This document shows, in pieces, positions 1,485 to 30,677 of a stretch of DNA of 35,098 nt. Numbering within the stretch: position 1 is the first letter of the stretch; each line of letters starts with the position of its first letter. The translations under genes were made by a program, and so were the position numbers. The notes beneath the pieces are model-generated. The model saw only the letters and a list, made by a program, of their open reading frames with translations, ran no database searches and was not told the DNA's origin. This DNA comes from Slackia sp. (GTDB lineage Bacteria; Actinomycetota; Coriobacteriia; Coriobacteriales; Eggerthellaceae). The stretch is taken from contig JAUNDR010000015.1 in assembly GCA_030525985.1 (NCBI GenBank), positions 1-35,098 of the forward strand, in the 5' to 3' direction.

Positions 1485-1523
1485 CTCGTCCTCCTTTCCC
1501 GCCACCTTGAAAGGGGCTTATAC

Positions 1524-1570
1524 AAAAAGAAAGCGGGACCATGCCCACTTTCTCATACGTCAGAAAAAGT
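1524..1570 (-). terminator. Leader terminator with competing antiterminator upstream of rimP-nusA
   Basis: On the minus strand the arms at 1552-1544 and 1537-1529 (GAAAGTGGG / CCCGCTTTC, one G-U pair) form a 9-bp stem with a 6-base loop, followed by TTTTT at 1528-1524: an intrinsic terminator 40 bases before the rimP start. Just upstream, ACTTTTTC (1570-1563) can pair with GAGAAAGT (1554-1547) in an 8-bp helix with one G-U pair. That helix uses the terminator's 5' arm, so the two folds exclude each other. It may instead only end transcription from the HAD gene at 1696. Confidence 0.6.
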
Positions 1571-1613
1571 TGTCGTACAACGCATGAAGCCACGCATGCG
1601 AATACGGTTACTT

Positions 1614-1642
1614 CTTATATCACAGCCGACACGCCCGCGCAA
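1614..1642 (-). promoter_or_regulatory. Predicted promoter for rimP-nusA
   Basis: A minus-strand TTGCGC (1642-1637) and TATAAG (1619-1614) are separated by exactly 17 bases. This would start a leader of about 120 bases that contains the terminator/antiterminator pair at 1524-1570. The -10 box matches consensus in five of six bases; the -35 box is weaker. It is a prediction from sequence only. Confidence 0.45.
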
Positions 1643-3153: not shown

Positions 3154-3762
3154 ATGAAAAGCATCCGTCTTTGGGGCACGCTCATCGGCACGGCAGCACT
3201 TGTCGCCGTGGGATTTCTCGGCGCGCGGCTGATCGATAAAGCAAGCGAGCCGTCCATCACGATGAACTCGGAAACCGTGGCGGAGCAGCTCGTCGAATGC
3301 AGCGAGCTTGCCACCATGAAGCTCGAATACCGCGGGCTTATCACCTATGAAGAAGGCGACCTCCCGCTGCTTACGAAAAAGGCTTTCTCCATGATTTACG
3401 ACGCCGATATCCGCGCAGGCGTCGACCTGTCGCAAGCGGAAGTCGACGTGAACGGCGCGAACGTCAAGGTGGAATTGCCCGCCGCAAGCGTGCAAAGCAT
3501 TTCCATCGACCCCGACTCGCTGCAGTTCTACGACCAGCAATATGCGCTTTTGAATTGGCAGAACCGCGATGACACCGCCAAAGCGCTGCAGATGGCGCAA
3601 GACGACGCCGAGGCGAAAGTCGACAGCACCACGATGATAGAAGATGCGCAGAAGCAGGCGGAAACCGTCGTCGAAACGATTCTGCTTCCCTTCACCGAAA
3701 GCGGGAATTACTCCCTGGAAGTAAGCTTCCGCGAACCGGTCGATACGCCGAATGAGGCATAA
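3154..3762 (+). CDS. DUF4230 domain protein, membrane-anchored
   Basis: A 202-residue protein with one N-terminal membrane segment (about 5-24, LWGTLIGTAALVAVGFLGARL) and an extracytoplasmic domain resembling DUF4230. The domain has the order expected for that family: an N-terminal strand block around ELATMKLEYRGLI, a central VDLSQAEVDVNGANVKVELP segment, a helix rich in Gln and Ala, and a C-terminal AETVVETILLPF helix. The molecular role is not known. The ATG is supported by GAAAGGA seven bases upstream. It lies 203 bases after dtd; that gap shows no gene or clear signal. A strong terminator follows. Confidence 0.75.
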   Translation: MKSIRLWGTLIGTAALVAVGFLGARLIDKASEPSITMNSETVAEQLVECSELATMKLEYRGLITYEEGDLPLLTKKAFSMIYDADIRAGVDLSQAEVDVNGANVKVELPAASVQSISIDPDSLQFYDQQYALLNWQNRDDTAKALQMAQDDAEAKVDSTTMIEDAQKQAETVVETILLPFTESGNYSLEVSFREPVDTPNEA

Positions 3763-3858
3763 GGCGCTCCTCGCGAGCCGATACGGGTTTTCCGCAAGCG
3801 CCTCGCGCTCCGCCATCGCATCGTACACGCAGGAAGAACCGGATTCCCCCAGACGCCG

Positions 3859-3895
3859 AAGAGGGTCGGAAACGAAAGTTTCCGACCCTCTTTCC
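3859..3895. terminator. Bidirectional terminator between the DUF4230 and DUF2871 genes
   Basis: A perfect 15-bp stem (3859-3873 with 3878-3892) closes on a GAAA tetraloop. On the plus strand it is followed by a short pyrimidine run, TTTCC. The flanking genes converge on it, so it probably ends transcription from both sides. Confidence 0.8.
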
Positions 3896-3929
3896 GTAAG
3901 GCGCCTTCGAGGCAACCGCGCGCGATTCG

Positions 3930-4352
3930 TTACGCCTGCTCAGCGGCGGCGACGGCCCTCTTCAGAATAACGAGCGTCCACACCAGGCACACGCCGAGCA
4001 CGATATGGCTCAAGCCCGCAATGCCCGCAATGGCGGCATCGGCGCCGGAAGGCAGCGCCGTTCTCAAAACCTCGAACACGCCGCGTACCAGCATCATGAC
4101 CACGGCGGCATTCAGGCCGACCTGATAGCCGATGAGAACCTTGTCCAGACCCTTCTTCTCGCCCGAAAACACCCGAGAGAAAATCGTCAACGCAAGGAAG
4201 AACAGCGTGCCGAGAATCAGGTAGTGAGGATGGATGGTTCCGAGAGCCGTAGCGCCGTCGAAACCATTGAGCTTGGTGAATTCGCGGAAGAACACGCCGC
4301 CGGCAAGCGCCAGCACGGCGTAAACGATCGCGCAGTTCATATATTTCTTCAT
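3930..4352 (-). CDS. DUF2871 family membrane protein
   Basis: A 140-residue integral membrane protein with four predicted helices: about 4-24 (NCAIVYAVLALAGGVFF), 45-62 (LILGTLFFLALTIFSRVF), 76-95 and 107-128. The HPHYLILGTLFF segment and overall length fit DUF2871. Conserved His residues before helix 2 recall heme-associated small membrane proteins, but that is speculative and no function is assigned. The ATG at 4352 has a GGGGG-containing Shine-Dalgarno upstream; the frame extends further but lacks one. The gene is preceded by a promoter with an inverted repeat at 4417-4429. Confidence 0.75.
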   Translation of the reverse strand: MKKYMNCAIVYAVLALAGGVFFREFTKLNGFDGATALGTIHPHYLILGTLFFLALTIFSRVFSGEKKGLDKVLIGYQVGLNAAVVMMLVRGVFEVLRTALPSGADAAIAGIAGLSHIVLGVCLVWTLVILKRAVAAAEQA

Positions 4353-4402
4353 GAGGGACCCCCTTCTTTCCCAGCGATTCTGCTCGCCCGTCGGTTTTCC
4401 CC

Positions 4403-4430
4403 AGTATAACAATTAATGAACATCGTTCAG
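4403..4430 (-). promoter_or_regulatory. Promoter with an inverted-repeat operator candidate for the DUF2871 gene
   Basis: TATACT (4408-4403, minus strand) is a good -10 box, with CTGAAC 16 bases upstream as a weak -35. The perfect 5-3-5 inverted repeat TGAAC-ATC-GTTCA at 4417-4429 lies in the spacer and -35 region, where a bound repressor would block polymerase. Confidence 0.45.
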
Positions 4431-4473
4431 ATTTTCACCATAACATTGGGGCGCCTCAGACGCCCCCGCTTGC

Positions 4474-4501
4474 AAAAAAGCCGCCCCTTACGGAGCGGCT
4501 T
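4474..4501 (-). terminator. Terminator of trpS
   Basis: A minus-strand 10-bp stem (4501-4492 with 4487-4478, one G-U pair) with a 4-base loop is followed by six T residues (4479-4474). It starts 22 bases past the trpS stop codon. Confidence 0.9.
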
Positions 4502-4522
4502 GAAGAAACTGTGCAAGGTGCG

Positions 4523-5572
4523 TTAGTACACCATTCCCATGGCTTCTTGCACTTCGGCAAGCGTCTGGTTCGCGATTTCGTTCGCGCGCTTGTTGCCCTC
4601 GTGGAGAACGTCTTTGACGTAGTCGAGGTCGTTTTCGTACTGTGCGCGGCGTTCACGAATGGGAGCGAAGTACTCGTTGACCGCTTCGGTCACGTATTTC
4701 TTCAACGCGCCCGAACCGCCCATGCCGATTTCTTCCGCGATTTCCACCTCGTCGCGACCCGTGCAGATAGCCGCCGTGGAGATAAGGCCCGAAACGCCGG
4801 GGCGATTCTCGGGGTCGAACGTGATCATGCGCTCGGAGTCGGTCTGGCTTTTCTTGATGCGCTTGGCGGTTTCTTCCGCCGTCATGGAGATGCTGATGGC
4901 GTTGCCGTAAGACTTGCTCATCTTGCGGCCGTCGAGGCCGGGAAGAAGCGGCGTGTCGGAGAGCAGCGCATCCACCTCGGGAAATACCTGGCCGTATCGA
5001 TTATTGAAGCGGCGGGCGATCGTGCGCGTCAGCTCGATATGAGGCAGCTGGTCGCGGCCGACCGGCACCACGTTGCCCTTGCAGAACAAAATGTCGCACG
5101 CCTGATGCACGGGATACGTCAGAAGCAAGCCCGTAAGCTCGTGCCCCGACGCCTCCATTTCGGCTTTCACCGTGGGATTGCGCTGAAGCTCCGCCTCGGT
5201 GACCAAGCTCAAAAACGGCAGCATCAGCTGATTGCACGCCGGCACCGCCGAATGGGTATAGATCATCGTCTTTTCGGGATCGATGCCGCATGCCAGATAA
5301 TCCATCACCATGTTGTAGACGTTGTCCTGGATATGCTCGGTCGTATCGCGGTCGGTGATGACCTGGTAATCAGCGATCAGGACGTTGGTGCGCGCGCCCA
5401 TGTTCTGCAACTCCACGCGTCCTTTCAGCGTTCCGAAATAGTGGCCCAAATGGAGCCTGCCCGTCGGGCGATCGCCCGTGAGCATGGTGTATTTCTCGGG
5501 ATGGGCGGTCAAATCGGCGCGGATTTCGTCGCTGCGCTTCTGGCTTGCCTCGAAACTTCCTTCATTGGCCAT
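4523..5572 (-). CDS. trpS: Tryptophan--tRNA ligase
   Basis: This class I aminoacyl-tRNA synthetase charges tRNA-Trp. The 349-residue product has the Rossmann-fold signature TGRLHLGHYFGTL (HLGH at 41-44) and the KMSKS loop at 217-221, both intact. The start is set at the ATG at 5572: the sequence then begins MANEGSFEASQKRSDEI, and AGGAG lies about 11 bases upstream, somewhat far. The frame is open upstream but looks unconserved. The 258 bases up to the divergent yigZ gene contain no T-box consensus on the trpS side, so tryptophan control by a T-box is not supported. Confidence 0.96.
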   Translation of the reverse strand: MANEGSFEASQKRSDEIRADLTAHPEKYTMLTGDRPTGRLHLGHYFGTLKGRVELQNMGARTNVLIADYQVITDRDTTEHIQDNVYNMVMDYLACGIDPEKTMIYTHSAVPACNQLMLPFLSLVTEAELQRNPTVKAEMEASGHELTGLLLTYPVHQACDILFCKGNVVPVGRDQLPHIELTRTIARRFNNRYGQVFPEVDALLSDTPLLPGLDGRKMSKSYGNAISISMTAEETAKRIKKSQTDSERMITFDPENRPGVSGLISTAAICTGRDEVEIAEEIGMGGSGALKKYVTEAVNEYFAPIRERRAQYENDLDYVKDVLHEGNKRANEIANQTLAEVQEAMGMVY

Positions 5573-27813: not shown

Positions 27814-27888
27814 ATGGTGCCCCCAACGAGAATCGAACTCGTGTCTCAGCCTTGAAAGGGCCGCGTCCTGACCTCTAGACTATGGGGA
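27814..27888 (-). tRNA. tRNA-Glu (anticodon TTC)
   Basis: A 75-base cloverleaf on the minus strand. The 5' GTCCCCA pairs with the 3' TGGGGGC in a 7-bp acceptor stem, the anticodon loop is CTTTCAA with TTC, the T arm has GTTCGATTC, and CCA is encoded. It reads GAA and GAG codons. Confidence 0.97.
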
Positions 27889-27908
27889 CTTGCTTAAGCA
27901 GCTTGGAT

Positions 27909-30473: not shown

Positions 30474-30537
30474 ACTGTTCACCTCCTTTTCGTTTTTGCT
30501 CAAATGCTCCGCCTCGATGGTGGGCCTTTTCGCAAAA

Positions 30538-30573
30538 CGAAAAGAAAGACCCCCGGTCGAAGACACGGGGGTC
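30538..30573 (-). terminator. Attenuator terminator in the rplJL leader
   Basis: GACCCCCG (30573-30566) pairs with CGGGGGTC (30555-30548) on the minus strand and is followed by TTTCTTTTC. It lies between the L10 leader and the rplJ start, about 65 bases before the ATG, so it can stop transcription before the operon. Confidence 0.8.
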
Positions 30574-30585
30574 GCACTATCATAT

Positions 30586-30677
30586 GCGCTCCACCTCGGC
30601 TGGCTGCTTTCGCAATTAAATCCATCTGGATGCCTGCTGTCTTCGGTAGCGGAACTATCGTTCACCTGCGTTGTTAA
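30586..30677 (-). ncRNA. Ribosomal protein L10 leader RNA
   Basis: On the minus strand, GACAGCAGG (30641-30633) and GCCGAGGTGG (30600-30591) are the two conserved strands of the L10 leader. Between them lie two small hairpins, ATCC-AGAT-GGAT and a GAAA-capped TGC/GCA stem. AACGCAGGTGAACG precedes the element. L10 or the L10-L12 complex binds this structure for autogenous control. Boundaries are approximate. Confidence 0.82.

Follow-up and report, generated by a model that had tools for sequence, protein, structure and literature searches.

The rimP-leader was described in 2010 by Naville and Gautheret, who called it the most ubiquitous attenuator and suggested NusA as its regulator (PMC2965389). 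It consists of a GGGc...gCCC stem and a T stretch in front of rimP-nusA-infB, has neither a larger conserved element nor a visible antiterminator, and commonly occurs with no tRNA before the operon (PMC2965389). In Bacillus subtilis, the nusA operon is under feedback from its own product: NusA stimulates a terminator in the leader (PMC12288461), an attenuator credited in that source to Mondal et al. 2016. For the gammaproteobacterial rimP leader with tandem terminators and for E. coli metY-rimP-nusA, a termination/antitermination pair has been proposed (PMC2965389). More generally, a weak hairpin and an interrupted U tract are typical of NusA- or NusG-dependent terminators (PMC8060035).

The Slackia rimP leader and its relation to described attenuators

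We analyzed the region upstream of rimP in a 35,098-nt stretch of Slackia DNA, referred to as the window. All leader features lie on its minus strand, in the intergenic region between the stop codon of a HAD gene (~1696) and the rimP ATG (1484). Transcription is predicted to start at ~1607, giving a leader of ~123 nt, with the following features:

1614-1642, minus: predicted promoter, from sequence; -35-like TTGCGC at 1642-1637, 17 nt, TATAAG at 1619-1614
1622-1614, minus: extended -10 TGATATAAG, from sequence, TG at 1622-1621
1574-1606, minus: P1, 5' hairpin of the leader, from folding
1563-1570, minus: segment 1, ACTTTTTC, upstream strand of the antiterminator-like competing helix, from comparative pairing and length covariation
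1544-1554, minus: segment 2, GAGAAAGTGGG, terminator 5' arm, common to both helices; 1554-1547 is the part used by the competing one
1527-1537, minus: segment 3, CCCGCTTTCTT, terminator 3' arm
1552-1544 with 1537-1529, minus: terminator core, GAAAGTGGG with CCCGCTTTC, 9 bp, extended to 11 by outer A-U and G.U pairs
1543-1538, minus: terminator loop
1524-1528, minus: T5 tract, followed by G1523 and thus an interrupted U tract
1570-1563 with 1554-1547, minus: competing helix 1:2, 8 bp with one G.U
1490-1497, minus: Shine-Dalgarno sequence AAAGGAGG, from sequence
1008-1484, minus: rimP (NCBIfam RimP models, best E 1.4e-30; PF02576)
1-943, minus: nusA, partial and leaving the window, from position and likeness to nusA of the relative L003

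Segment 1 and the 3' arm both pair with segment 2, so helices 1:2 and 2:3 are mutually exclusive. The original prediction had listed a promoter-like TTGCGC-17-TATAAG, a leader of about 120 bases, a 9-bp terminator with T5 and an 8-bp alternative helix (1547-1554 with 1563-1570) that takes the same 5' arm and excludes the terminator; all of its coordinates are right, on the minus strand, and the helix is exactly as stated.

The hairpin matches the published rimP-leader in each of its defining features. It precedes rimP in a rimP-nusA-infB operon, infB being taken from L003 since the window ends within nusA; in L003, nusA lies directly after rimP, encodes NusA_N, S1 and KH domains, and is followed by infB. 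Its 5' arm is G-rich and its 3' arm C-rich in the GGGc(...)gCCC manner, reading GGGC...UCCC in the window, where GGG and CCC are retained and the lower-case g is U. The T5 tract (1528-1524) supplies the T stretch, the distance to the start of rimP is ~40-45 nt (rimP-leader range 4-130 nt), and the motif is specific to rimP leaders, as detailed below. From these sequence features we assign the Slackia terminator to the rimP-leader of Naville and Gautheret. The L003 operon (nusA 3529-4731, infB from 4766) leaves ~35 nt between the two genes, with no room for ylxR. Slackia NusA ends in a Cys/His-rich tail (CAYVSEDGAHCRNHARPGSRFCGIHADEE), and Pfam gave no match to this tail.

The Slackia form differs from each described system at a different point. 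The general rimP-leader shares the conserved GGG...CCC terminator and T stretch before rimP-nusA-infB, whereas the Eggerthellaceae form adds the 5' hairpin P1 and then segment 1, which pairs with the 5' arm. The B. subtilis leader shares a terminator of the same operon, and stimulation by NusA, established there according to the account in PMC12288461, would extend to Slackia by analogy. The gammaproteobacterial leaders share the operon, but the antiterminator of the tandem form is part of a second, upstream terminator (CCCg...cGGG), whereas Slackia has a single terminator, whose own 5' arm serves both helices; E. coli metY-rimP-nusA carries an upstream tRNA in its transcript, unlike the Slackia leader, the sole tRNA of the window being at 27815-27889. 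The trp and his attenuators have the same three segments with exclusive 1:2 and 2:3 pairing, but no leader peptide or ligand domain was identified in the Slackia leader. The suggestion that the tRNA-less architecture is a distinct form does not hold, given that tRNA-less rimP-leaders are common (PMC2965389) and that leader control by NusA is established in B. subtilis (PMC12288461). The distinct feature is instead the competing helix, which is lacking from the 2010 description.

On its own, the single Slackia sequence is modest evidence, because terminator matches are common in the window and the leader's fold shows just a moderate advantage over shuffles (z -2.0). A consensus scanner calls the leader hairpin a minus-strand terminator (11 pairs), and the same scanner finds 25 matches in 12 kb of the window versus 15.6 +/- 4.4 in shuffles. 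No Rfam family reaches its gathering cut-off at the leader, the best being L20_leader with 15.5 bits versus 58.7. A second leader-type element, the Rfam L10_leader (RF00557), lies at 30535-30664 on the minus strand of the window, with 44.2 bits just above the cut-off of 44. The decisive evidence is comparative.

Terminator and promoter across Coriobacteriia

Of 138 Eggerthellaceae genomes, 127 yielded a rimP gene, as did 288 of the 298 Coriobacteriia sampled, and we examined the upstream DNA for ~165 of them. Of 137 Eggerthellaceae genomes, 120 contain exactly one match to a terminator pattern made from the Slackia leader, in each case before rimP; a reversed control pattern gave zero matches in the same search. 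By pattern search, the window's own genome also holds one copy. Among 41 leaders from the other families of Coriobacteriia, 39 have a terminator of the same kind, with altered stems such as GAUGUGGGG/CCCCGCAUC and GGAGUGCGGG/CCCGCGCUUCU. Of 119 family leaders scored, 113 retain one particular pair of the stem, a U.G wobble at window positions 1547/1534 (AGUG/CGCU), which is also seen class-wide despite changes in neighboring pairs. Attributing this near-invariant wobble to helix 1:2 was rejected, as families without the helix retain it.

The promoter comparison bears on which transcript the hairpin serves. Upstream of the hairpin, the extended -10 matches seven of eight consensus bases in 97 of 122 relatives and six of eight in another 23, compared with ~5.6 and 40 in shuffles; the -35 is weaker. 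A P1-like hairpin of varying sequence ends a few nucleotides before segment 1 in most genera, and folding of the P1 region gave a mean z of -1.45 over 40 genera, with 70% below -1. In the window a HAD gene does lie upstream on the same strand, which would fit a hairpin that only ends HAD transcripts while rimP starts downstream of it. Among 31 relatives tested, however, a HAD gene precedes rimP in just four, and in many genera the gap from hairpin to rimP is only 18-36 nt. We rejected this explanation, now highly improbable, on neighborhood, spacing and the conserved extended -10; from the same three observations the hairpin is assigned to the rimP leader, as the original prediction had it. 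In one genus (g34; L126 and L128), the leader lacks segment 1, and a tRNA-like sequence lies upstream of rimP, apparently in the opposite orientation.

The competing helix in Eggerthellaceae

Of 122 Eggerthellaceae leaders, 113 have segment 1, with the form [AGU]CU(3-5)C, a few nucleotides upstream of the arm, and in every one of these the pairing with the arm is complete and includes the closing C-G. Permuting U-run length against arm bases gave a mean of 97.3 and a maximum of 107 in 20,000 permutations compared with the observed 113 (p<1e-4, with shared descent ignored), and the same test with one leader per genus gave p<=0.004. At the arm position opposite the closing C, G is present for all 12 four-U segments versus 25 of 88 three-U segments (p 1.8e-6). 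Three arms carry A at the base that would have to be G to close a three-U segment, and each of the three faces a four-U segment. Parsimony on rimP trees placed 9-10 changes in U-run length, with the closing pair kept in each. A phylogenetic sign test limited to supported branches of the rimP tree left one usable independent pair, so shared descent may still account for part of the length covariation. Taken together, these comparisons give good support for a helix 1:2 that is conserved and covaries in length.

Segment 1 could alternatively be a single-stranded site for a protein (the NusA KH/S1 domains, RimP or another factor), with its complementarity to the arm secondary. Flanks such as CAUACUUUCG are indeed conserved outside the paired letters, but U-run length tracks the sequence of the arm, a dependence not required by a fixed protein site, making this quite an unlikely explanation.

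Outside Eggerthellaceae the helix disappears. The longest pairing run is 7.0 bp in Eggerthellaceae versus 5.0 bp in other Coriobacteriia, where it is no better than in shuffles while the terminator is present. Helix 1:2 therefore appears from its distribution to be a family-level addition to an older terminator. The helix is not essential, as the remaining nine of the 122 leaders, from some genera, have no segment 1.

This patchy distribution is also consistent with a fixed attenuator, in which helix 1:2 holds read-through at a constant level and has no sensing role, and no ligand-sized conserved domain was seen beyond P1 and segment 1. We consider a fixed attenuator unlikely: single-copy, rimP-specific conservation extends across family and class, and NusA feedback acts on the rimP-nusA operon in E. 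coli and B. subtilis (PMC12288461, PMC2965389).

Predicted folding order and a proposed model for control by NusA

When the growing Slackia leader was folded, P1 formed first. Helix 1:2 came next, flanked by the paired apical GGG/CCC, and persisted until the 3' arm was nearly complete, when the terminator took over. Masking the final 4 nt of the 3' arm made helix 1:2 the favored structure in 110 of 110 leaders, and with the arm complete the terminator was favored in 110 of 110. The complete terminator is much more stable than helix 1:2 (means of -14.3 versus -4.6 kcal/mol). In these models the exchange of helices falls about where polymerase must decide, which supports a kinetic role without proving it; the support is partial because the shared arm in part produces the flip.

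The reading we favor as probable is a NusA-tuned rimP-leader attenuator in an Eggerthellaceae-specific form, controlling the rimP-nusA-infB operon. We infer a kinetic order of folding in which transcription would begin at ~1607 and P1 would form first. Segment 1 would capture the terminator 5' arm once the arm exits RNA polymerase, and the apical GGG/CCC could pair alongside. This fast-forming helix would keep the base of the terminator open until NusA aids its closure, and termination would need the final 6-8 bp of the terminator to displace segment 1 during a polymerase pause on the short, interrupted U tract. By analogy with the systems above, NusA may be the signal in the Slackia lineage: because NusA helps weak terminator hairpins close, high NusA would be expected to favor termination, and low NusA would permit read-through into rimP-nusA-infB. 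By delaying closure of the terminator base, the helix would make termination more NusA-dependent. The original observation is confirmed and its interpretation supported in part. In folds of the read-through RNA, the predicted partner of freed segment 1 (1570-1563, minus) lies near the Shine-Dalgarno AAAGGAGG (1497-1490, minus), a pairing that could add translation control.

Polymerase pausing offers another use for the same helix. The consensus pause has the form G-11 G-10 ... C-1 / G+1. Helix 1:2 sits 11-12 nt upstream of a pause-like element of this kind (GGG-loop-CCC/G), and in most relatives the end of GAAAGU is likewise 11-12 nt from the CCC/G boundary. It could thus be mainly a pause hairpin of the his-leader type rather than an antiterminator, holding polymerase so that NusA loads before the terminator, and NusA is known to prolong hairpin pauses (PMC12288461). 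The spacing, however, is partly set by the terminator's own GGG/CCC geometry, and a similar GGG...CCCG is retained in Coriobacteriia without helix 1:2, leaving this a rather doubtful reading. We likewise give only a minor chance to helix 1:2 being a true regulated antiterminator in Eggerthellaceae, stabilized by P1 together with a factor or condition other than NusA; if so, this ubiquitous attenuator would act in the family as a two-state switch for rimP-nusA-infB.

The attenuator itself is known, and within the part of the literature covered we found no published description of an antiterminator in actinobacterial rimP leaders, so that the conserved competing helix of Eggerthellaceae is apparently undescribed. 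The literature covered also yielded no transcriptome for Eggerthella or its relatives, and neither RNA ends nor NusA data for the Slackia lineage. In the 2010 description of this widespread leader, no competing structure was seen and the mechanism was left unsettled. Under the preferred reading of a NusA-tuned attenuator, the same terminator with and without a length-covarying helix provides a natural comparison for how a leader terminator becomes NusA-dependent, and it bears on how common gut bacteria regulate an essential operon.
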